Assembly (NCBI GenBank): GCA_022181065.1
Contig: BQMY01000101.1
Location: forward strand, 1 to 47,075
Source of the DNA: Melioribacteraceae bacterium
GTDB lineage: Bacteria > Bacteroidota > Ignavibacteria > Ignavibacteriales > Melioribacteraceae
Direction of reading: 5' to 3'
Length of the DNA: 47,075 bases
The notes under the pieces are model-generated. The model saw only the letters and a program-made list of their open reading frames with translations. It was not told the DNA's origin and made no database searches. Below are positions 1 to 45,780 of the stretch, piece by piece (positions within the stretch are counted from its first letter, which is position 1; each line of letters begins with the position of its first letter). The position numbers and the translations under genes were made by a program.

Positions 1-87
1 TGTTTTAGCATGAAAACCACTAAGTTGACGCCATTGCCTTCAAAGGAGGACTTTGTAACGAAACGACTTTGTCAACAGTCTGACCGG
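1..87 (+). repeat. Right end of composite dispersed repeat (copy A)
   Basis: The stretch from about base 36 (CTTCAAAGGAGGACTTTGTAA) through ACTTTGTCAACA to CCGG at 84-87 matches the right end of the element at 45395-45774, in the same orientation. The conserved arm ACTTTGTCA followed by CCGG marks the putative boundary. The left part of the element is either outside the window or missing: bases 1-35 do not match the other copies clearly. Confidence 0.6.
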
Positions 88-108
88 ATTTTCATCCGGG
101 TTTTTTTT
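84..108 (+). terminator. Rho-independent terminator candidate
   Basis: CCGGAT (84-89) pairs with ATCCGG (94-99) around a TTTC loop and is followed by a run of T. It would end transcription of a gene left of the window. The stem shares its CCGG with the end of repeat copy A, so the element may carry or have landed beside a terminator. Confidence 0.55.
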
Positions 109-25621: not shown

Positions 25622-25670
25622 ACTATTACCTGCATTGCCCGGCTCCCTGGTTCATCATTCAGTAACTTTG

Positions 25671-25815
25671 TTCGAGAGGTGGGTGAGGTTCTCAAACCCC
25701 GGCAATGGCCCTTCGAGAGCCTCAGGGATCATTGTTCGAGAGGTGGGTGAAGTTCTCAAACCCCGGCAATGACCCTTCGAGTGCCTCAGGGACCATTGTT
25801 TTAGAGGCGGGTGAG
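25671..25815 (+). repeat. 64-bp tandem repeat, about 2.3 units
   Basis: Units at 25671-25734 and 25735-25798 agree at 60 of 64 positions. A third partial unit begins at 25799 (TTTTAGAGGCGGGTGAG). Each unit starts TTCGAGAGGTGGGTGA and holds CCCCGGCAATG and CCTCAGGGA. Units are directly adjacent with no spacers, so it is not a CRISPR array. Confidence 0.9.
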
Positions 25816-25858
25816 TTTATCGTTTATCCCGCAAAGCGGGGAAGCACCGTCAATGTTC

Positions 25859-25901
25859 GACCCTTTTCCGCTTCGCGGGACAGGCGTGCGCTCAGAGGCC
25901 C
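25859..25901 (+). repeat. Dispersed CCGC-hairpin repeat, copy 1
   Basis: GACCCTTTTCCGCTTCGCGG and the following GACAGGC...GCTCAGAGGCC align with 27837-27880. The core is a short hairpin CCGC-TTC-GCGG. The first part also echoes GACCCTTCGAG in the 64-bp tandem units, so these blocks may be one repeat family. Confidence 0.6.
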
Positions 25902-26088
25902 ATAATAAGTTTTGTCATGCCCGAGCCCCATCGGGTATCCAGTTTTTGAGCGATGGAATGGGAACCCATCCTAAACCTGTGCGCCTCAGGAGCATCCTTC
26001 CCTTTAGTAAATGGAAGGACTTTTAAAGCATTTAGTGATAGGCTTCATTTGCCATAGTTTATCCCGCGAACCAGGTGATGACTTTTTG

Positions 26089-26204
26089 ACCTCAACCCCC
26101 TGCGCCGCGGCGCACCCTTCTCCTCTTAACAGGAGAAGGGGAGCAGAATAGAAATCCGAATATTATTTTCCCTCTCCTAAGTTAGGAGAGAGTAAGGGTG
26201 AGGT
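26089..26204. repeat. Structured palindrome array
   Basis: Four nested pairings: outer ACCTCAACCC (26089-26098) with GGGTGAGGT (26196-26204), one bulge; a perfect 14-bp palindrome TGCGCCGCGGCGCA (26101-26114); CCCTTCTCCT with AGGAGAAGGG (26115-26124/26131-26140); and CTCTCCTA with TAGGAGAG (26172-26179/26183-26190). Similar intergenic palindromes are common in many bacteria. It sits 15 bp from the stop codon of the minus-strand YciO gene and may act as its transcript end. Confidence 0.7.
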
Positions 26205-27772: not shown

Positions 27773-27836
27773 TTAGTTTTTGGTTACTTAGTTAATTATT
27801 TGTCACACTCTCGGTCTAATCTAAAAAAACATTCCC

Positions 27837-27880
27837 GGCCCTTTCCCGCTTTGCGGGACAGGCAACTGGCTCAGGGATCT
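27837..27880 (+). repeat. Dispersed CCGC-hairpin repeat, copy 2
   Basis: GGCCCTTTCCCGCTTTGCGG followed by GACAGGC and GGCTCAGGGATC aligns with 25859-25901. The hairpin is CCCGC-TTT-GCGGG. It separates queC from queF. Confidence 0.6.
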
Positions 27881-33344: not shown

Positions 33345-33425
33345 TCATCCTCCGTCTTCCGACTTTGGTCGGAATCCACCTCCTAAGCCAGAGGCTTACA
33401 GGTTCAGAAGGAGGACTTTAGAAAC
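33345..33425 (+). repeat. Solo module of the composite repeat (copy B)
   Basis: TCATCCTCCGTCTTCCGAC, GTCGGAATCCACCTCCT and AGGAGGACTTTAGAAAC match the second module of the elements at 37268 and 45395. Hairpin 1 is TTCCGAC (33357-33363) with GTCGGAA (33368-33374). Hairpin 2 is CCTCCT (33379-33384) with AGGAGG (33409-33414), and its loop here holds an extra 24 bases containing the small hairpin AAGCC-AGA-GGCTT. No other part of the element is present. Confidence 0.8.
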
Positions 33426-37267: not shown

Positions 37268-37590
37268 AATCAGACTTGTTGACAATTTATTAAAAATATT
37301 CCCGCTTTCGCGGGAATGACAGTAAAAATTAAGATGAAGGCAGGAAATATCGGTAAGTATTACGATATTTCATGACTATTCTAATATTTATCAGCCCGTT
37401 TTCACAGGCTGAGGTTGTTGAAAAACCTGGTAGTTGATTTTCAAGTCCCCCTTTGAAGGGGGAAATCACTCCGCCATAGGCGGATTTTGTGATGGGGGAT
37501 GACCAAAAGTCACGAAAAAAGTAAAAAATCATCCTCCGTATTTCGACTATCGTCGAAATCCACCTCCTTCAAAGGAGGACCTTGAAACAA
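37268..37590 (+). repeat. Composite MITE-like repeat element (copy C)
   Basis: Order of parts: left arm ATCAGACTTGTTGACAA (37269-37285); palindrome ATTCCC-N8-GGGAAT (37298-37317); module 1 with hairpins TCCCCCTT/AAGGGGGA (37446-37453/37456-37463) and ATCAC/GTGAT enclosing TCCGCC/GGCGGA (37465-37493); module 2 with hairpins TTTCGAC/GTCGAAA (37541-37547/37552-37558) and CCTCCTT/AAGGAGG (37563-37569/37572-37578). The same parts occur in the same order at 45395-45774. The right arm is not recognisable here. It fills most of the gap between the TPR gene and glyS. Confidence 0.75.
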
Positions 37591-37599
37591 AAACACCCA

Positions 37600-37631
37600 A
37601 TCAAAAATAATTAGCCCGTTTTTACGGGCTA
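37600..37631 (-). terminator. Terminator after glyS
   Basis: On the minus strand, TAGCCCGT and ACGGGCTA (plus coordinates 37624-37631 and 37612-37619) form an 8-bp stem with a 4-nt loop, followed by AATTATTTTT. It begins 4 bases after the glyS stop codon. Confidence 0.7.
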
Positions 37632-37635
37632 TAAA

Positions 37636-39114
37636 TTATCTCAACTTTTCGAGTAAATAGATCAACAGGTTATCAGCGTTTATACGTTCCTGATTCATCG
37701 AATCACGTTCGCGAACAGTTACAGTGTTATCTTCCAGAGACTGGGTGTCAACAGTGATGCAGAAAGGTGTACCTGCTTCGTCCATTCTGCGATAACGTCT
37801 TCCAACCGCGCCTTTATCATCGAAAAATACACGCAGATAAGGACGCAGATCGGCTTCTATTTTTCTCGCAAGTTCGGGCATTCCATCTTTATTAACAAGG
37901 GGGAAAATCGCTGCTTTGATTGGAGCCAGTTTCGGATGAAGCCCCAATACGGTTCTCGTTTCTCCCTTTACTTCTTCTTCACGATATGCGTCCACCAGAA
38001 ACGCCATAAATGAACGACTAGCGCCCGCCGAAGTTTCTATAATAAACGGAACGAACTTTTCTTTAGATTCTTCATCAAAATATTTCTGTGATTTACCGGA
38101 ATATTCCTGATGACGACCCAGATCAAAATCGGTTCGGTTATGAATACCTTCAATCTCGCCCCAGCCAAAAGGAAACTCATATTCGATATCAACTGCTTCT
38201 TTAGCGTAATGAGCAAGTTTGTCAGCCGGGTGGTCATGATATCTTAGTTTTTCAGGAGTCATTCCAAGATTATTATACCATTCAAGGCGCAATTCTTTCC
38301 AGTGATCATACCATTTTTTGTCGTCTTCGGGTTTGACAAAAAACTGCATTTCCATCTGCTCGAATTCACGCGTACGGAAAAGAAAGTTTTTGGTATTTAT
38401 CTCATTCCTGAAAGCTTTACCAATCTGAGCGATACCAAAAGGAAGTTTTTGTCTGCTTGCGCCCTGAACATTCAGGAAGTTAACAAAAATCCCCTGCGCT
38501 GTTTCAGGACGGAGATATATAACATTTCCTTCCTTGTCAACAGGACCAAGAAAAGTTTTAAACATGAGGTTAAAACTTCTGGGAGGAGTAAATTCACCTT
38601 TTGTTCCGCAGTTAGGGCAACTTAATTCTTTAAGCAATGCTTCTGAAACAACTTCATCTTCAAGGAGGGCTTCAAATTTTTCGCCGTTATCTTCAATATC
38701 GGCAGTGATTTTATCAATTTTTGTTTTGAGTTCCTCATTTTCCAGCAGAGCCATTACAGCTTTTTTACGCTTCTTATCGTTGATCTGCTCGCCAAGTGTA
38801 TCGAGGCGGTAACGCGCTTTACACTGTTTACAGTCAATCATCGGGTCGGTGAAGTTTTCAACGTGACCTGAAGCCTGCCAAACACGAGGGTGCATAAGGA
38901 TGGATGCGTCAAGACCTTCAACATCTTCACGGTAAGTCATGAACTTCCACCACTCTTCTTTAATATTTTTGAGGAGTTCAACTCCTAACGGACCGTAATC
39001 CCAGCAGCCGTTCAAGCCGCCGTATATTTCACTTGACTGAAATACAAAACCTTTTCTTTTCGCTAGTGATACTACTTTTTCAACTGTATCATTTTTCTTT
39101 TTCGGGGTACTGAT
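37636..39114 (-). CDS. glyS: Glycyl-tRNA synthetase (homodimer type), atypical start
   Basis: Charges tRNA-Gly. Class II motifs are visible: FRNEI (motif 2 region), RPETAQGIF and the C-terminal GASRSFMAFL. Two zinc knuckles, CKQCKARY and CPNCGTKG, fit the Thermus/Bacteroidetes type. The frame opens only with TTG at 39015 by standard rules, but that would delete the conserved N-terminus. Upstream codons in the same frame read STPKKKNDTVEKVVSLAKRK and GFVFQSSEIYGG, as the family expects. No ATG, GTG or TTG lies there; an ATC at 39114-39112 stands 8 nt after GGAGG, and a TGA in frame at 39120-39118 blocks the ATG at 39129. I extend the gene to the ATC (492 residues). Either ATC initiates or a base is misread. 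Confidence 0.9.
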   Translation of the reverse strand: MSTPKKKNDTVEKVVSLAKRKGFVFQSSEIYGGLNGCWDYGPLGVELLKNIKEEWWKFMTYREDVEGLDASILMHPRVWQASGHVENFTDPMIDCKQCKARYRLDTLGEQINDKKRKKAVMALLENEELKTKIDKITADIEDNGEKFEALLEDEVVSEALLKELSCPNCGTKGEFTPPRSFNLMFKTFLGPVDKEGNVIYLRPETAQGIFVNFLNVQGASRQKLPFGIAQIGKAFRNEINTKNFLFRTREFEQMEMQFFVKPEDDKKWYDHWKELRLEWYNNLGMTPEKLRYHDHPADKLAHYAKEAVDIEYEFPFGWGEIEGIHNRTDFDLGRHQEYSGKSQKYFDEESKEKFVPFIIETSAGASRSFMAFLVDAYREEEVKGETRTVLGLHPKLAPIKAAIFPLVNKDGMPELARKIEADLRPYLRVFFDDKGAVGRRYRRMDEAGTPFCITVDTQSLEDNTVTVRERDSMNQERINADNLLIYLLEKLR

Positions 39115-39187
39115 AGTTCAATCCTCCATGATTTTACATAAATGGCAAATATAATAAATTGGAATTATATCACGGAAACTAATTTTC

Positions 39188-40489
39188 CTAATCCTTGTCA
39201 ACTGATCTGGCAAAAATATGATCTACATTTTTTAACATCTTGTCATAATCAAATACTTCTTCTATTTCTTCTTTAGGGAGATATTTTAAGACTTCATCAT
39301 CCGCAAGGAGTTCGTCTTTGAGGTTTTTCTCCTTGTTCGCCCATACTTCCATAGCGTTTCTCTGAACAAATTTGTAAGCGTCTTCACGCGAAATACCGGA
39401 GTTAACTAGTTTAAGGAGAATAGTTTGTGAGAATACAAGTCCGCGAGTTATTTCCATGTTGCGGATCATATTTTCGGGATAAATGATTAGATTATCTACA
39501 AGTTTGATCATCAGGTCGAGAGCATAGTAAGTGATTATGCAGCTATCGGGCACAATTACTCTCTCAACGGATGAGTGTGAAATATCGCGTTCGTGCCACA
39601 AGGCTACGTTTTCCATAGCTGCCATTGCATTCCCACGCAACAATCGGGCTATACCCGTAACTCTTTCACTAACGATAGGGTTGCGTTTGTGAGGCATCGC
39701 GGACGAACCTTTCTGACCTTTTGAGAAGAACTCCTCAGCTTCAAGTACCTCTGTACGCTGCAGATGTCTTATCTCAACTGAAATCTTCTCGAGAGAAGCA
39801 CCGATTATCGCGAGAGTTGATAAAAACTCCGCGTGTCGGTCTCGTTGAATCACCTGAGTAGAAACTGAAGCAGGGGAGAGTCCCATTTTTTCACAAACAT
39901 ATTCTTCCACTTCAGGTGAGAGGTGTTCAAAAGTACCAACCGCGCCTGAAATCTGACCAACGCTTATTCTTTCGAGAGCGCCCTCAAGGCGTTCGATATT
40001 ACGTTTATTTTCCTCGTACCAGAGTGCGAACTTAAGTCCCATTGAAGTTGGCTCAGCATGAATACCGTGACTTCTTCCTACGCAGATTGTACGTTTATGC
40101 TCAACAGCACGTTTTTTAAGAATATCCTTAAACTGCTTTAGTTGAGTAAGGATAATTTCACCGGCGGTTTTCATCTGGTAGCTGAGGGTTGTATCAAGGA
40201 TATCGCTGGAGGTCATTCCGTAATGTATATGCCTTGATTCCGCTCCAACATACTCCGCGATATTTGTAAGGAAGGCGATAACATCGTGTTTGGTGGTTTC
40301 TTCAATTTCGAGAACGCGTTTTACGTCAAAGTTTGCTTTTTCCCTGATAACATCAACATCCGCCATGGGGATATCACCCATTTTAGCTCTCGCTTCACAG
40401 GCATAAATCTCAATATCGAGCCATGTTTGATATTTAAACTTATCTTCAAAAATATAACCTATTTCAGGTTTTGTATATCTGGTAATCAT
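39188..40489 (-). CDS. purB: Adenylosuccinate lyase
   Basis: Acts twice in purine synthesis, releasing fumarate from SAICAR and adenylosuccinate. The 433-residue protein has the fumarase-superfamily signature GSSAMPHKRNP near 262-272, the catalytic-serine loop, and His in SHGIHAEPTSMG near 139-150. Length is normal. Its start overlaps the stop of the HtrA gene by four bases (ATGA), so it is translationally linked to an otherwise unrelated protease. Confidence 0.96.
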   Translation of the reverse strand: MITRYTKPEIGYIFEDKFKYQTWLDIEIYACEARAKMGDIPMADVDVIREKANFDVKRVLEIEETTKHDVIAFLTNIAEYVGAESRHIHYGMTSSDILDTTLSYQMKTAGEIILTQLKQFKDILKKRAVEHKRTICVGRSHGIHAEPTSMGLKFALWYEENKRNIERLEGALERISVGQISGAVGTFEHLSPEVEEYVCEKMGLSPASVSTQVIQRDRHAEFLSTLAIIGASLEKISVEIRHLQRTEVLEAEEFFSKGQKGSSAMPHKRNPIVSERVTGIARLLRGNAMAAMENVALWHERDISHSSVERVIVPDSCIITYYALDLMIKLVDNLIIYPENMIRNMEITRGLVFSQTILLKLVNSGISREDAYKFVQRNAMEVWANKEKNLKDELLADDEVLKYLPKEEIEEVFDYDKMLKNVDHIFARSVDKD

Positions 40490-41679
40490 AATTTTTCCAA
40501 TTCCATCTCTTTAGTTAATGTATCGCCGTTTCTGAATACGGTTAATTCGATATTATCACCGGTTCTGAAATCCTGCAGAACACCAATGAGTGTTTCATCA
40601 TCGTTGATGACATATTTTTCAACTTTTAGAATTACATCGCCTACTTCAAGCCCTGCTTTATCAGCCGGAGAATCATTCCCGATATAGGTAACAATAACAC
40701 CGTGTGTATTTGGTAAACCGTAATACCGGGCAATTTCTTCATCAATAGATTGTATGCGCAAACCTGTCCAGAAATCGCGGGTTACTGAACCGTTCTGTTT
40801 AAGTTCATCAATTATCGATTTAACTTTGTTGATTGGTATCGCGAATCCAACCCCAACGTTGCCTGAAGAACCTTGTGCTGTGTAAATAAGTGTATTCATG
40901 CCTATCAGTTCACCGATTGCGTTAACGAGAGGTCCGCCGCTGTTTCCGCCATTGATCGCCGCGTCTGTCTGAATCATGGACAGGTAATACCTTTCATTTA
41001 CTTCACCCAGATTCATCCCGAGAGCACTGACCACGCCGACAGTTACTGTAGGTTTGTCATTAAGTGAGAATAACCCAAAGGGGTTACCAAGCGCGATTAC
41101 CCACTCACCAATTAAAATATCATCTGATTTACCAAGTTTTATGTAAGGTAAATCTTCAGCTTCAATTTTTAACAGACATATATCAGAAACCGGATCGGTG
41201 CCAACAAGTCTGGCATCGTATCTTGTTCCATCGGTCATGGTGACAATAATTTTAGTAGCGTTACCCGCAACATGATCGTTGGTTATTATATATCCATCGG
41301 GTGAAATAATGGAGCCTGAACCAAGTCCTTTAACTTTGCGGTTGTACACCCGATCACCAAAAAATCGTCTGAAAAACGGATCATTACTTAAAGGATCACG
41401 ATATTGTCTTATTTCTGTTACATTTATACCTACAACCGCAGGGGAAACGTTGGAGACCGTGCGTGTGATTACGTTGCTCCTTGAGCCGAAAATTTCATCA
41501 TTCGCGCTCTCTCTGGTATTTACAACCTTATAGTCATTTTTTTGTTCGGTAAAATCAACTACGTCACCTCCGGTTACCTGAGCCGAGACATCTTCTGATT
41601 TACTCAGATAGATAAAAATTCCGGACATCACGAGCATAGTAAATAAAGAGGAGATGAATGCCGTTCTAAGTTCTTTCAT
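40486..41679 (-). CDS. HtrA/DegQ-like serine protease with one PDZ domain
   Basis: A periplasmic quality-control protease of 397 residues anchored by an N-terminal helix (about 7-25). The trypsin-like domain has His136 (NDHVAGN), Asp166 (SDICLLK) and Ser247 (GGNSGGPL). A single PDZ domain covers about 300-395 (VIVTYIGNDSPADKAGLEVG). It is closer to DegS in layout (anchor, one PDZ) than to two-PDZ DegP, though DegS function is not implied. It overlaps plsY by 14 bp and purB by 4 bp, so plsY-htrA-purB is one operon. Confidence 0.93.
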   Translation of the reverse strand: MKELRTAFISSLFTMLVMSGIFIYLSKSEDVSAQVTGGDVVDFTEQKNDYKVVNTRESANDEIFGSRSNVITRTVSNVSPAVVGINVTEIRQYRDPLSNDPFFRRFFGDRVYNRKVKGLGSGSIISPDGYIITNDHVAGNATKIIVTMTDGTRYDARLVGTDPVSDICLLKIEAEDLPYIKLGKSDDILIGEWVIALGNPFGLFSLNDKPTVTVGVVSALGMNLGEVNERYYLSMIQTDAAINGGNSGGPLVNAIGELIGMNTLIYTAQGSSGNVGVGFAIPINKVKSIIDELKQNGSVTRDFWTGLRIQSIDEEIARYYGLPNTHGVIVTYIGNDSPADKAGLEVGDVILKVEKYVINDDETLIGVLQDFRTGDNIELTVFRNGDTLTKEMELEKL

Positions 41680-42313
41680 TTAAATCCTCAACTTTTGTTC
41701 TTTTATTCAATTTCAGCCAGTCCAGTATCGGACCAATATGTTTTACAATCACAATCAGCATTAAGATTCCGAAAAAAATTCCGAACAGCGTTTCATCCTG
41801 CGATGATGGAGATGTATATTTGTTAAGTATATCGGCTGATGTGTATGCCAGGATACCGGTAAGAAATGTTGCTGTTATATTCCCGAAATGAATACTTTTT
41901 TTGAAAATGTAACCGATAACCCAGAATATTCCCCATAAAAGCAAAATGAGCGGGGAAAAAATGGCGGTACTTCCGGCAGCGGATGCTAATCCTCGTCCAC
42001 CTCTGAATCCAAGCCATGGATTAAAGCAATGACCGAGAACTACAGCATTCATGCTTATAGCAGAAAAAATGAAATTTTCTTCAAACAAAAGAGATGTAAT
42101 AAAAACCGCGGTTAACCCTTTCAGGAAATCGACTATAAAAACAATCACACCAATCATTTTTGAACCGGAAACTTCGTAGCTGTTCATCGCCCCAACGTTA
42201 CCTGAACCTTCTTTTGTGATATCCATATTTCTGGCTTTTTTCATTACAAGCCAGGCTGTTGGGATTGTACCCAGCAAAAATGAATACAAAAAGATAATTA
42301 TATATTCTACCAT
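41666..42313 (-). CDS. plsY: Glycerol-3-phosphate acyltransferase PlsY
   Basis: Acylates glycerol-3-phosphate from acyl-phosphate, the first step of phospholipid synthesis. The 215-residue protein has several membrane helices and three conserved motifs: GTIPTAWLV near 15-23, GSGNVGAMNSYEVSG near 36-50 and GHCFNPWLGFRGGRGLA. I start at the ATG for MVEYIIIF because the longer frame opens only with a TTG. The gene's last 14 bases overlap the HtrA start. Confidence 0.93.
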   Translation of the reverse strand: MVEYIIIFLYSFLLGTIPTAWLVMKKARNMDITKEGSGNVGAMNSYEVSGSKMIGVIVFIVDFLKGLTAVFITSLLFEENFIFSAISMNAVVLGHCFNPWLGFRGGRGLASAAGSTAIFSPLILLLWGIFWVIGYIFKKSIHFGNITATFLTGILAYTSADILNKYTSPSSQDETLFGIFFGILMLIVIVKHIGPILDWLKLNKRTKVEDLNERT

Positions 42314-42387
42314 GAAAAATTCCGTGAAATGCAAAATAATAAATTAAGAAAAATTCTCTTAAAAGGGGATTGGGAGTTGATGTAAAA

Positions 42388-42588
42388 CTAATTTTGTGAA
42401 AAATCTACAATACCTTTTCGAAGGTTATGATTTTCCTTCTTGAGATTTTTCACCTCTTTTTCCAATAATTCTATTCTTTCATTTAGCCGCTTATTCTCCG
42501 AAATAATTAATGCTCCGTACTGGATGATTTTTTCATTCAGTTTTGTAAGCTGACTTATTAACTCAGCCGGGGATGTAGTATCAGCCAT
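42388..42588 (-). CDS. Small coiled-coil protein (ZapB-like appearance)
   Basis: A 66-residue protein almost entirely predicted as one coiled coil: leucines repeat through QLTKLNEKIIQYG and RIELLEKEVKNLKKENHNL. GGAA precedes the ATG. The size and heptad pattern resemble the cell-division factor ZapB and other short coiled coils, but shape similarity is weak evidence. It is 75 bp before plsY on the same strand and divergent from the phosphorylase gene. Confidence 0.7.
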   Translation of the reverse strand: MADTTSPAELISQLTKLNEKIIQYGALIISENKRLNERIELLEKEVKNLKKENHNLRKGIVDFSQN

Positions 42589-42783
42589 ATCAGTTCCGTT
42601 TTACGGATTTAACAATTATAAAATTAATTTTGTTCTTAAAAATAAACATTGATTTGAAAAGATGTAACACAATGGTATTAATTCTTTAATAATTCTCTCT
42701 TCCTCAAAGTTATCATATATTTGTAAATAATGGAGATTACATTATTTTAAATTGAATTTACAGAAAAAATTCTATCGGAGTTT

Positions 42784-45348
42784 ATGATGGTTAATTTCAT
42801 TGGTACATTCAGCGTGATACCTTCTCTTCCCAAAAAGTTGGAGACACTGCGTGAGATAGCATATAATCTGTATTGGACCTGGAATCATGACGCAAGAGAA
42901 CTATTCAGAAGAATGGATGGTCAGCTTTGGGAGGATACCAATCATAATCCGGTGCTGCTTCTCGGCAGGATAAGTCAGGATCGTCTGGGAGAACTGGAAA
43001 ATGACTACGGCTTCATTTCACACCTTAACCGTGTTTATGTTCAGCTCAATGTTTATCTGCAGGAAAAAACATGGTACTCCAAAAAATATGGAGATAACCA
43101 GGAGACTAATATCGCGTATTTTTCCGCTGAATTTGGTTTAACGGAATGTTTACAGATATACAGCGGTGGACTCGGGATTTTATCCGGCGATCATGTAAAA
43201 TCAGCGAGTGATCTGGGATTACCATTTGTGGCAGTGGGTTTGTGCTATAAGGAAGGTTATTTTCAGCAGTATCTTGCCTCCGACGGGTGGCAGCAGGAAA
43301 AATATACGCTTACCGACTTTTATAATCAGCCGATGGAACTCGTGACCGATGATACAGGAAGACCAATCAAAATTACGCTGGATTTTCCGGGTCGTGTAGT
43401 ATTTGTGCAGGTATGGCGAATTCTTGTAGGGAGAGTAACATTATACTTGCTTGATACGAATGTAGCTGAAAATAGTGATGGCGACAAGAAAATTACCCGC
43501 GCTCTTTATGGGGGTAACATGGAGACGAGAATCCAGCAAGAAATTTTGTTAGGTATTGGAGGAATAAGGGCACTCCACGCCCTGGGAATTAAGCCAAAAG
43601 TGTGTCATATGAACGAAGGGCATTCAGCATTTCTTGGATTGGAGCGAATCCGGTATCTGATGCAGTATGAAAAATTAAGCTACGAAGAAGCCAAGACCAT
43701 TAACTTTTACTCCAATATTTTTACCACACATACGCCTGTTCCCGCCGGGATTGACGTTTTTTCGAACGATCTTGTTGAAAAATATTTCGGCAAATATTAT
43801 CGGGAAGAGCTGAAAATAAGTGATACCGAATTCTATAAACTCGGCACTATTATCAGAGATGAAGAACCCGCGAATTTCAATATGGCTCATCTCGCTATGA
43901 ATACTGCCGGCTTTGTAAACGGAGTTAGTAAACTGCATGGTGAAGTTTCAAAAAAGCTTTGGGTTGATGGCTTTAAAAATATTCCATTTGATGAAATTCC
44001 TATAGATTATGTCACGAATGGCATTCATACACATTCACACATCTCAAATGAGATGCAGGATTTACTTTTGCGCTATCTTGGCGATAAAATCATCCAGGAC
44101 CCTTCAGACATAAGAGCATGGAGCCGCATAGATGAGATCCCTGATGAAGAATTGTGGCGAACCCATGAAAGAAGACGCGAAAGACTGGTTGCTTTTGCGA
44201 GACGCAGATTACGCAATCAAATAGAAAACAGAGGTGGATCGCCTTCCGATATTGAAGCGGCAAAAGAAGTTCTGAATGCATCCGCGCTTACAATCGGTTT
44301 TGCCCGACGCTTTGCGACGTACAAACGCGCCAACCTGATATTCAAAGATCTGGAAAGACTGGTGGATTTAATGATGAATCCCGAGATGCCTTTGCAGCTT
44401 ATTATCGCAGGGAAAGCACATCCCCGTGACGAAGAAGGGAAAAAGCTCATTCAGGAAATATACAGCATCGCTCAGGAAGAAAACATGCGCAAGCGAATTG
44501 TTTTTCTCGAAAATTACGATATGAATATTGCGCGCTACATGGTTGAAGGCTGCGATGTATGGCTGAATAACCCGCGAAGACCACTTGAAGCATCAGGTAC
44601 TTCCGGTATGAAAATTATAGCTAACGGAGGCTTAAATTTCAGTGTGCTCGATGGCTGGTGGGATGAAGGTTACGACAGGTACGCCGGGTGGAGGATAGGA
44701 AGTGGTGAAGAGTATGAGGACTCTGATTATCAGGATGAAATTGAAGCACGACAAATCTATGAAACTCTCGAAAAAGAGATAATCCCCCGATTTTATCAAC
44801 GAGGTGAAGATAAACTTCCTCGCGGCTGGATTGAGATGATGAAGGCCTCCATGATCAAACTGGGACCTGAGTTTAATACTAATCGCATGGTGCAGGAATA
44901 CACCGATAAATTTTATATTCCATCATATTCAAAACGGAAATATTTATCTTTGGATAATTATAAGGATGGAAAAGAATTAGCCTTGTGGAAAATAAAAATA
45001 TTCAAGAACTGGAGTGAAATAAAATTTTTGGATATTGCTTCCGAGACCAAACAATCGGAAGTTAAAGTTGGTGCTGAATTTAGTATTAAGGCAAAATTGC
45101 GTCTTGGTGGACTTTCACCGGAAGATGTCGATGTTCAAATCTATTACGGTAAGGCAGATGACAAAAACAAAGCTCACTCCAATGAATTTATTACGATGGA
45201 GCTTCAGGGAAAAACCGCGGATATATTTGATTATATCGGGGTGATCGACTGTGAAAAAACCGGGAATTTTGGGTTTACCCTGAGAGTATTACCCAAACAT
45301 GAGATGATGATCAATCCATTTGAAATGGGATTGATAGCCTGGGCGTAA
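42784..45348 (+). CDS. glgP: Alpha-glucan (glycogen) phosphorylase
   Basis: Releases glucose-1-phosphate from glycogen or maltodextrins. The 854-residue protein belongs to GT35, in the shorter family typical of bacteria and archaea. Lys610 in EASGTSGMKIIANG is the PLP lysine. EFGLTECLQIYSGGLGILSG near 116-135, FTTHTPVPAG and the glycine-rich YGGNMETRIQQE are all family signatures. GGAG lies 3 bases before the first ATG, 6 before a second. The last 100 residues form an extra beta-rich domain beyond the core. No other glycogen gene is adjacent, and it is probably monocistronic. Confidence 0.94.
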   Translation: MMVNFIGTFSVIPSLPKKLETLREIAYNLYWTWNHDARELFRRMDGQLWEDTNHNPVLLLGRISQDRLGELENDYGFISHLNRVYVQLNVYLQEKTWYSKKYGDNQETNIAYFSAEFGLTECLQIYSGGLGILSGDHVKSASDLGLPFVAVGLCYKEGYFQQYLASDGWQQEKYTLTDFYNQPMELVTDDTGRPIKITLDFPGRVVFVQVWRILVGRVTLYLLDTNVAENSDGDKKITRALYGGNMETRIQQEILLGIGGIRALHALGIKPKVCHMNEGHSAFLGLERIRYLMQYEKLSYEEAKTINFYSNIFTTHTPVPAGIDVFSNDLVEKYFGKYYREELKISDTEFYKLGTIIRDEEPANFNMAHLAMNTAGFVNGVSKLHGEVSKKLWVDGFKNIPFDEIPIDYVTNGIHTHSHISNEMQDLLLRYLGDKIIQDPSDIRAWSRIDEIPDEELWRTHERRRERLVAFARRRLRNQIENRGGSPSDIEAAKEVLNASALTIGFARRFATYKRANLIFKDLERLVDLMMNPEMPLQLIIAGKAHPRDEEGKKLIQEIYSIAQEENMRKRIVFLENYDMNIARYMVEGCDVWLNNPRRPLEASGTSGMKIIANGGLNFSVLDGWWDEGYDRYAGWRIGSGEEYEDSDYQDEIEARQIYETLEKEIIPRFYQRGEDKLPRGWIEMMKASMIKLGPEFNTNRMVQEYTDKFYIPSYSKRKYLSLDNYKDGKELALWKIKIFKNWSEIKFLDIASETKQSEVKVGAEFSIKAKLRLGGLSPEDVDVQIYYGKADDKNKAHSNEFITMELQGKTADIFDYIGVIDCEKTGNFGFTLRVLPKHEMMINPFEMGLIAWA

Positions 45349-45780
45349 CAAATTGATATTTACGTTTTTAAGATAAAAGGAGCAGATAAAAATTCCGGGG
45401 TTCAGACTGCTGACAAAGTTGCGTTTTAAGGTTCTCCCAAGGAGGACTAAAAATCCTTGTCATTCCCGCGGAGGCGGGAATCCAGAAAATATTTTTTGTC
45501 AAAAGATTGTTCGGTAACAGGTGAACCATACATGACAAATAAACTTTATTTAATAAGCAAATCTTCGGCTTTGCCCATTACATGGATAACACAACGGGGT
45601 TGTACTAGTCCACTTAAAAGGTGGAAATCACTTCGCCACAGCCGAATGTTGTGATGGGTGTAGACCAAGACTTATAATAAATGCAATAAATCATCCTCCG
45701 TCTTCCGACATTCGTCGGAATCCACCTACTTCGAAGGAGGACTTTGTAACAAAAGTACTTTGTCAACAAACCGGCTTGGA
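45349..45780. other. 432-bp intergenic region occupied by repeat copy D
   Basis: Between glgP and the zinc-ribbon frame there is only the composite element and about 45 bp before it. A short open frame at 45457-45654 translates the ATTCCC palindrome and is not a gene. Confidence 0.75.
45395..45774 (+). repeat. Composite MITE-like repeat element (copy D)
   Basis: Bounded by CCGG at 45395-45398 and 45771-45774. TGACAAAGT (45411-45419) and its complement ACTTTGTCA (45757-45765) are the clearest part of imperfect inverted arms about 35 bp long, which also include TCTCC.../...GGAGGA. Inside are ATTCCC-N8-GGGAAT (45462-45481), module 1 with TCCAC/GTGGA (45609-45613/45621-45625) and ATCAC/GTGAT (45627-45631/45651-45655), and module 2 with TTCCGAC/GTCGGAA (45703-45709/45714-45720). 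No transposase gene is inside. It ends 6 bp from the stop codon of the neighbouring zinc-ribbon frame. Confidence 0.75.

Follow-up and report, generated by a model that had tools for sequence, protein, structure and literature searches.

A gene-less mini-element of probable IS1182-type ancestry lies between duplicated terminator-like hairpins in a Melioribacteraceae genome

Introduction

What kind of repeat recurs four times between the genes of the 47,075-nucleotide stretch of Melioribacteraceae DNA analysed here (the window), and how might it have spread? A sequence-only reading had taken the two largest occurrences for copies of a five-part composite, consisting of a left arm, an ATTCCC-N8-GGGAAT palindrome, two modules of two hairpins each and, in one copy, a right arm complementary to the left, and had suspected a non-autonomous MITE-like element. 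Our analysis indicates that the dispersed repeats are probably copies of a small, gene-less mobile element with ancestry among IS1182-type insertion sequences (IS).

Results

Searched module by module, as had been proposed, the 4.9 Mb host genome contained 175 matches to module 2, compared with 1 for the control. Modules 1 and 2 form the palindrome-rich core of a dispersed mini-element. Genome-wide, the core gave 192 candidates, 40 of which, the loci most like copy D of the window, were scored in a first search. We parsed 113 copies out of about 175, the earliest loci being those most similar to copy D, and found the two modules paired in fixed order in 83 of the 113. The mini-element has two unlike ends, one reading CAG(A/T)CTGTTGACAAAG and the opposite one, read inward, GAG(A/G)TTGTTGAAAAACC; the A end is CAGWCTGTTGACAAAG and the B end GAGRTTGTTGAAAAACC. 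As ends were called by mismatch limits, decayed copies were lost, and 36-37 of the 113 copies had both ends inside these limits together with flanks of sufficient length. The 36 copies with both ends measured 190-225 bp end to end. The mini-element is thus short, multicopy and bounded by defined ends, as MITEs are. It was present in one of 58 genomes, the host's own, with no second genome of the genus among the relatives, and no empty site of the mini-element itself was seen. The end pattern AGNCTGTTGAMAAAGT was matched in 12 of 146 genomes, including the host's (G000); the 11 non-host loci were rejected, since inspection by eye showed no core and no hairpin duplication in them; several of the matches lay in long ORFs. 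Rfam gave no match at gathering thresholds in the 47-kb window.

The best preserved copy in the window is copy C (37411-37612, minus strand), a near-complete element that runs from A to B on the minus strand, with a decayed A end, an intact B end (GAGGTTGTTGAAAAACC) and 94% identity to a genomic copy in locus L044 (query 22-209). It contains module 1 at 37445-37503 (a GTCCCCC arm plus an ATCAC/TCCGCC hairpin) and module 2 at 37530-37580, both on the minus strand. Copy C lies between two near-identical hairpins, an outer target duplication at 37393-37410 (AGCCCGTTTTCACAGGCT) and an inner one at 37613-37630 (AGCCCGTTTTTACGGGCT), which agree at 16 of 18 positions. The span of 37268-37590 previously assigned to this copy has to be redrawn; because the boundaries are 37411 and 37612, the supposed left arm and palindrome at 37268-37317 fall outside. 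The inner hairpin sits at the stop of a class II tRNA-synthetase ORF (37636-39015, minus strand) and is likely its terminator; a terminator-like site is predicted at 37631-37612 on the minus strand.

The remaining window copies are less complete. Copy D (45403-45772, minus strand) is decayed or rearranged, with A-type ends at 45403-45418 and about 45757-45772, and neither a B end of standard form nor a target duplication was detected. Its modules 1 (45608-45665) and 2 (45692-45742), both on the minus strand, follow the same order as in copy C, as had been reported, and the two copies are 77% identical across a 160-nt stretch. A second, inverted A-type arm past module 1, earlier described as a right arm, is convincing in copy D alone (one mismatch); two other copies have one with three mismatches. 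Copy B (33346-33416, minus strand) is indeed a remnant made of module 2 by itself. Copy A (39-82, minus strand) is the A-end half of an element truncated by an insertion sequence, the terminal part of which occupies positions 1-38; this second IS is inserted in the CCTTC/GAAGG hairpin of the mini-element. Copy A had been placed at 1-87 and described as a right end with a CCGG boundary, and an element end does lie beside a CCGG hairpin, but bases 1-38 belong to the other IS. The CCGG boundary itself is a terminator-like hairpin, ACCGGATTTTCATCCGGG (83-100, plus strand), which abuts the A end and is followed by a T run at 101-108. All four occurrences lie between ORFs of at least 80 aa, in line with the intergenic placement first described.

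The five-part arrangement does not hold as a unit, the arm and palindrome being outside it. The ATTCCC-N8-GGGAAT palindrome, found near copy C (37298-37317) and within copy D (45462-45481), is a separate dispersed repeat with 33 places in the host genome. It lies within 420 nt of only five of the 113 copies parsed, two of which are C and D of the window; for 22 of the 113, the sequence available on one side was shorter than 420 nt. Formally, the palindrome equals the consensus of Neisseria dRS3. REP/BIME repeats with RAYT and dRS3 are likewise dispersed intergenic palindromes; here the palindrome is separate from the mini-element.

We then compared the flanks of the mini-element. Of the 36 copies with both ends, 27 had an end-anchored direct duplication that exceeded the 99% level set by 1260 cross-paired flanks, and 16 exceeded the maximum of these cross pairs; target-site duplications had been named as a check, and they are present as in MITEs. 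A looser first pass gave duplications in 30 of 54 copies, judged against 2862 cross pairs. Nine of the 36 copies had no significant duplication, some of which (L023, L158) still carry recognisable hairpins on both sides. Hairpins scoring at least 15 were found exactly at the boundary on the B side in 19 and on the A side in 22 of 37 copies, compared with 0.97% of 7350 random positions. The base following the B end was A, and the base preceding the A end T, each in 27 of 37 copies. When the frame was fixed, the duplication score was at least 9 in 24 of 37 copies, and in 14 of these 24 the length of the duplication equalled that of the hairpin exactly. The rank correlation of duplication with hairpin length was weak (0.35, p 0.07, n 27), and in the fixed frame it reached 0.44 (p 0.03, n 24), a value that includes six cases scored as length zero because the hairpin finder found none at the exact boundary. 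Hairpins were unlike between copies and alike within one copy. The mini-element has a hairpin on both sides, which differs from the IS1272 pattern of a removed stem-loop and no duplication. By a rough ORF rule, divergent gene pairs surrounded it in 2 of 27 cases.

The full-length, transposase-carrying relative that had been called for was found in another genus of the same family (L279, genome G002). It is a complete IS with a 481-aa DDE transposase of the IS1182 family (NF033551, 472 bits). One of its ends, CAGACTGTTGACAAAG, matches the A end of the mini-element at 16 of 16 positions, and the other, CAGGTTGTTGAAAAACC, matches the B end of copy C at 16 of 17; through these ends the mini-element carries terminal sequences of the IS1182 family. 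Its defined ends, its many copies and its target duplications, together with a relative that shares the ends and encodes a transposase, bear out the suggestion of a non-autonomous, MITE-like nature. Judged from these sequences, L279 likely represents the parent type. It is flanked on each side by a hairpin with the same 7-bp stem, the loops TCC and GGA being reverse complements of each other; scored as a direct duplication the flanks reach 8, where the null maximum is 9, and as an inverted one 18.

An autonomous element sharing the ends was also sought in the host, and no intact element of the parental clade was found in its assembly. The sole large IS1182-family match there (contig C95) is spread over more than one frame, groups on the opposite side of the tree and seems to end differently. 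The sequence TCAGATTGTTGCAAAACAGG at L274:1468 was considered as the end of the IS on C95 and rejected, since it reads as coding sequence, at the 3' end of the gene; the IS appears to end in GGCTGACTAAAAAGT, so C95 was dismissed as the parent. A PF01609 search of the host genome gave three matches, none of them an element with the right ends.

We wondered whether relatives of the likely parent share the flanking pattern. A direct duplication of 18-28 nt was present in 15 of 16 plasmid or viral-contig relatives of L279, with a lowest score of 18 versus a maximum of 6 in 240 cross pairs; the remaining member, L312, had no duplication. The sample comprised 11 of 15 listed plasmid records (without H5, H10, H11 and H14) and five of six viral loci (L315, a fragment, was left out), none of them picked by its flanks. 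In 14 of the 15 cases the whole duplication, from its first base to its last, made up a stem of 7-12 uninterrupted Watson-Crick pairs and a loop of 3-9 nt, and in the other one the outermost pair was G-T. The more distant members L349 and L351 showed the same stem-loop duplication. L350, an ISEfa7 copy, was left out of the count, as its ends were not found and an IS256 gene adjoins it. Comparison of L319 with five plasmids and of L323 with two gave seven empty sites, each of which holds one hairpin, with flanks identical at 40 of 40 positions on both sides except for one flank at 38 of 40. Two of at least six records among the matches listed were retrieved from one search of plasmid records, and from another five of seven, namely those not already listed with the IS. 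A phage collection searched with the L313 flank gave no match.

In the tree, duplicating elements are separated from splitting ones by a branch with 100/100 support; the label 'split' covers seven scored elements plus L301, assigned by eye, while L279 and L312 are unlabelled. Four more distant IS1182 elements (L352-L355), which serve as contrast only, reached a best direct-duplication score of 9. The clade, which includes ISBspe1 (a name from the annotation of the L318 record), shares terminus type, hairpin target and stem-loop duplication with the mini-element; its members carry a transposase gene and measure about 1520-1610 bp, whereas the mini-element has no transposase gene and spans 190-225 bp.

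Discussion

The ends, the hairpin context and the stem-loop-long duplications of the mini-element were observed directly, as were duplications and empty sites in the clade of its likely parent. The mini-element is very probably a miniature non-autonomous transposable element derived from this particular IS1182-family clade, which inserts at terminator-like hairpins and duplicates the stem-loop. DDE transposons as a rule generate target duplications that hardly vary in length, since the spacing of the two cuts is set by the enzyme. Here, insertion would occur at the foot of a gene-end hairpin and leave a whole copy of it on either side: the stagger would span the entire stem-loop, gap repair would produce one complete hairpin per side, and the gene-end signal would survive. 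The transposase may recognise the folded hairpin or a cruciform, and that of this clade may have mobilised the mini-element. We lean towards the wider reading that one clade of DDE enzymes recognises terminator hairpins in extruded form and joins at the 5' foot on each strand, so that the hairpin and not the enzyme would set the duplication length (16 to about 30 nt). On the same reading, the mini-element would have reached about 175 copies because its insertions duplicate rather than destroy the terminator; the flanking hairpins may function as terminators, and their retention may be the reason why so many copies are tolerated.

A different account of the duplications is that targeting is sequence-specific, the A-tract and T-tract borders of terminators being read and cut while the hairpin between the cuts is not recognised as a structure. 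Duplications start with A and finish with T in 14 of 15 clade cases, and such bounds are expected where the A run, stem and T run of a terminator join. We regard this as possible but rather unlikely, since cut spacing tracks the stem-loop over 16-30 nt with no fixed distance and some targets (L152, L233) show no clear A run. The flanking hairpins might also belong to the element itself, making it a mobile terminator cassette, as hairpins border most two-ended copies on either side and flank the parent-type IS too. However, the hairpins vary among copies and agree within a copy, cross pairings do not match, and for the IS clade the idea is refuted by empty sites that hold one hairpin; it is extremely improbable.

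Palindromic modules, copies of module 2 alone and further palindromic repeats in the genome would suit an origin as a patchwork of older REP-type repeats that a REP-associated tyrosine transposase had moved. Such an origin is highly improbable, given that the ends match those of an IS1182-family element encoding a DDE transposase and that 83 of 113 copies contain both modules in one set order; REP/RAYT elements are not known to have a terminal pair of ends with long target duplications. That the element replaces or splits its target hairpin, as published members of the IS1182 family do, is very unlikely as well, even though the transposase belongs to the same family, IS1272 removes hairpins (PMC4923244, PMC5678879) and 7 of 16 IS1182-family elements outside the clade (13 with callable ends) occupy split palindromes with scores beyond the null maximum, with L301 added by eye. 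Here a hairpin is present on both sides, the clade's empty sites have one, and the fully supported branch sets the duplicating elements apart from the splitting ones; for the duplicating clade, splitting is untenable.

Stem-loop duplication sets the mini-element apart from the systems closest to it. IS1272 and TnSha1 share the transposase family with the parent-type IS and also target stem-loops, several of them terminators, with no sequence consensus; in the relevant passages of PMC4923244 and PMC5678879 their target hairpin is deleted or replaced with no target duplication, whereas the mini-element duplicates it. ISCbo5 and ISBma2, also of the IS1182 family, insert at gene-end hairpins, as the mini-element does, and one report reads these as likely transcription stop signals, in passages silent on splitting versus duplication of the hairpin (PMC3098183). 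ISPse1 of Paracoccus has a transposase of the same family and 16-bp terminal repeats, and is listed with a 4-nt target duplication, unlike the stem-loop-long one described here (PMC3281130). Bacterial MITEs are short, non-autonomous, intergenic and multicopy with IS ends, like the mini-element, and the passages on terminators and target site duplication in PMC10969869 mention no hairpin-long duplication. Our full-text literature search, which covered mostly titles and the beginnings of abstracts and had ISfinder and most subscription papers outside its scope, found no description of hairpin-long duplications by IS1182 elements. ISfinder reportedly gives IS1182-family duplications as 0-60 bp, and single stem-loop cases may be recorded there.

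As far as the passages cited go, terminator targeting with deletion of the hairpin (IS1272) was already known for the IS1182 family, duplication having been a hypothetical branch: Wan et al. 2017 observed hairpin removal and drew a 'pathway b' in which a cruciform joined at its 5' foot would give a duplicated hairpin (PMC5678879). Duplication length in our data follows the target stem-loop, as that pathway predicts. Hairpin duplication would explain how elements may aim at terminators and still be harmless, and it offers an alternative source for the terminators just upstream of some IS1182-type transposase genes. The series of filled sites, together with filled and empty pairs on Bacillus subtilis plasmids, makes recognition of structure versus sequence directly testable.

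A dispersed mini-element with unlike ends

With window copy D (45403-45772) as query, a core of about 154 nt, comprising modules 1 and 2 together, recurred throughout the host genome (4.90 Mb in 164 contigs, the window being contig C101). The best 40 of 192 candidates were scored, and the majority of matches began at query position 224. The pattern GACGGAGGATGATTT (15 bases, up to two mismatches) gave 175 matches in this genome versus one with the reversed control. Mini-element DNA was present in one of 58 genomes searched, the host's own. Cores also stand in rows, with four matches 208-418 nt apart at C93:51853-52689 and three matches 434 nt apart at C142:6881-7763, which suggests local amplification.

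We parsed 113 unique copies in the fetched loci under loose limits. Using A and B for the ends and 1 and 2 for the modules, the layouts were A21B (50), A2-- (16), A21- (15), -21B (11), -2-- (10), -21- (7) and A2-B (4). Both ends and enough flank were present in 36 copies under stricter limits, and these measured 190-225 nt. The two ends read CAG(A/T)CTGTTGACAAAG (A) and, inward, GAG(A/G)TTGTTGAAAAACC (B).

The sequence-only reading had proposed a five-part composite that included an ATTCCC-N8-GGGAAT palindrome and an outer left arm. Neither belongs to the element. The palindrome is a separate dispersed repeat, found within 420 nt of 5 of the 113 copies; it has 33 genomic sites, versus none with the control, window positions 37298 and 45462 among them. 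Of the 15 palindrome loci listed, four had a core within 600 nt, in addition to the two window cases. Formally it equals the Neisseria dRS3 consensus, and one row of four was seen at 321-352 nt spacing (C93:42009-43051). The left arm at 37268 falls outside copy C (37411-37612). Copy D, a 370-nt stretch with an A-type end on either side, is read as an old copy, rearranged or fused.

Matching hairpins flank many mini-element copies

When 30 loci were aligned with one window copy, many copies proved to carry the same hairpin on both sides, and this hairpin differs between copies. Flanks were duplicated above the 99% level of 2862 cross-paired flanks in 30 of 54 loosely defined copies; for the strictly defined copies, 27 of 36 exceeded the 99% level of 1260 cross pairings and 16 exceeded their maximum. 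With the frame fixed, the duplication scored at least 9 in 24/37 copies, and in 14 of these 24 the duplication had the exact length of the hairpin starting at the boundary. The hairpin finder saw none at the exact boundary in six of the remaining ten. Hairpins scoring at least 15 started exactly at the boundary on the B side in 19/37 copies and on the A side in 22/37, versus 0.97% of 7350 random positions. The base following the B end was A in 27/37 copies, and the base preceding the A end was T, likewise in 27/37. A rough longest-ORF rule gave the gene context of 27 copies: both genes with the element's sense in 12, both against it in four, convergent in nine and divergent in two, as expected for terminators.

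Copy C is bordered by AGCCCGTTTTCACAGGCT (37393-37410) and AGCCCGTTTTTACGGGCT (37613-37630), which are identical at 16 of 18 positions. The latter is a terminator-like site directly behind a class II tRNA-synthetase gene (37636-39015) whose nearest matches are Ignavibacteriales/Melioribacteraceae metagenome-assembled genomes at 77% identity. The underlying scan yielded 8 sites in all versus 7.6 expected, so function cannot be argued from this site by itself. The end of copy A is followed by a hairpin and T run (83-108).

A probable parent-type insertion sequence and its clade

The host's own IS1182-family gene, on C95, is frame-split (294 bits) and falls on the other side of the transposase tree from the duplicating clade described below; the ends of this element look like ends other than A and B. 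Among relatives, 106 of 245 genomes had an IS1182-family match. A complete insertion sequence, L279, was found in a genome of another genus of the host's bacterial family. It encodes a 481-aa transposase (NF033551, 472 bits; domains DUF772 and DDE_Tnp_1_6). Its end upstream of the gene is CAGACTGTTGACAAAG and its downstream end CAGGTTGTTGAAAAACC, the same unlike pair, A and B, as in the mini-element. Two hairpins with an identical 7-bp stem flank it; their 3-nt loops are reverse complements of each other, so this is not a clean direct duplication (score 8 as direct, 18 as inverted). Besides this genome, one of 393 had a match at E 1e-60 (32% identity).

The nearest outside relatives of L279 (56-63% identity where listed) lie on plasmids and viral contigs, the plasmid hosts being Bacillus, Alkalihalophilus (ISBspe1), Acinetobacter, Salinivibrio, Rhizobium, Sphingobium and Klebsiella. 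Direct duplications of 18-28 nt flanked 15 of the 16 clade elements examined, L312 having none; the lowest of the 15 scores was 18 and the maximum over 240 cross pairs was 6. In fourteen of the duplications Watson-Crick pairing runs unbroken from the first base, an A, to the last, a T, giving a stem of 7-12 bp around a loop of 3-9 nt; the L326 duplication has G-T as its outermost pair. Two additional members, L349 (53% identity) and L351 (43.5% identity), also have a stem-loop duplication.

Outside the clade, 16 IS1182-family elements from relatives were compared, with ends callable in 13. Long direct duplications were absent from all 13, whose best score was 2. Seven (L283, L284, L286, L292, L294, L296, L299) split a palindrome with a score exceeding the null maximum, and L301 appears to do so by eye; all eight, more distant members of the family, are inserted at the palindrome centre, which is a second mode of targeting among IS1182-type elements. 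A single branch (support 100/100) parts the 15 duplicating from the 8 splitting elements in a maximum-likelihood tree built from 32 transposases, nine without label; none of 500 shuffles of the labels gave a value as low.

Empty sites were available for two clade members. Five related plasmids lack the insertion at the L319 site (B. subtilis plasmid) and two lack it at the L323 site (IncC plasmid), with flanks identical at 40/40 bases on both sides except for one at 38/40. Since each empty site holds one hairpin, the hairpin is the target in this clade and is duplicated upon insertion.

A possible route to hairpin duplication

The comparisons show the target, its duplication, the ends and the clade. 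Cut spacing tracks the stem-loop, which makes recognition of the fold itself by the transposase the best reading, but the A/T borders of terminators still compete with it as a cue. With joining at the 5' foot of the hairpin on each strand, insertion would leave a complete stem-loop as overhang, and its repair would double the hairpin. As a likely consequence the host gene would retain its own terminator, and the element would probably be shielded from read-through on both sides.

Targeting of terminators or hairpins by the IS1182 family is already described in PMC4923244, PMC5678879 and PMC3098183, and stem-loop doubling is drawn as possible pathway b by Wan et al., 2017 (PMC5678879). In their account of IS1272, however, the stem-loop is removed, and for IS1272/TnSha1 a hairpin deletion is reported (Furi et al., 2016; PMC4923244), whereas the mini-element and the clade duplicate it. 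We found no stem-loop-long duplications, clade defined by them or mini-element family using them in the open full-text literature searched. Terminators upstream of transposase genes in ISBma2 and other families are treated as parts of the insertion sequence where PMC2965389 describes them; for those of IS1182-type genes, duplication of a target terminator would be an alternative origin.

Other repeats in the window and host genome

A second insertion sequence, with outer end GGCAATGGCGTCAACTTAGTGG, is broken off at eight contig ends (C143, C86, C124, C103, C84, C90, C155 and C101, the last at window 1-38); no complete transposase gene of this element was encountered. It seems to favour palindromes too, since in all eight cases it interrupts a mini-element copy at the CCTTC/GAAGG hairpin. 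Another contig start, C125:1-32 (bases 1-32 of L027), carries what looks like Illumina adapter sequence, an assembly artefact. At window 25668-26200 and 27828-27863, other palindromic intergenic repeats, among them a 64-nt tandem pair and CCGC-TT-GCGG types, cluster around a Sua5/YrdC-like gene.
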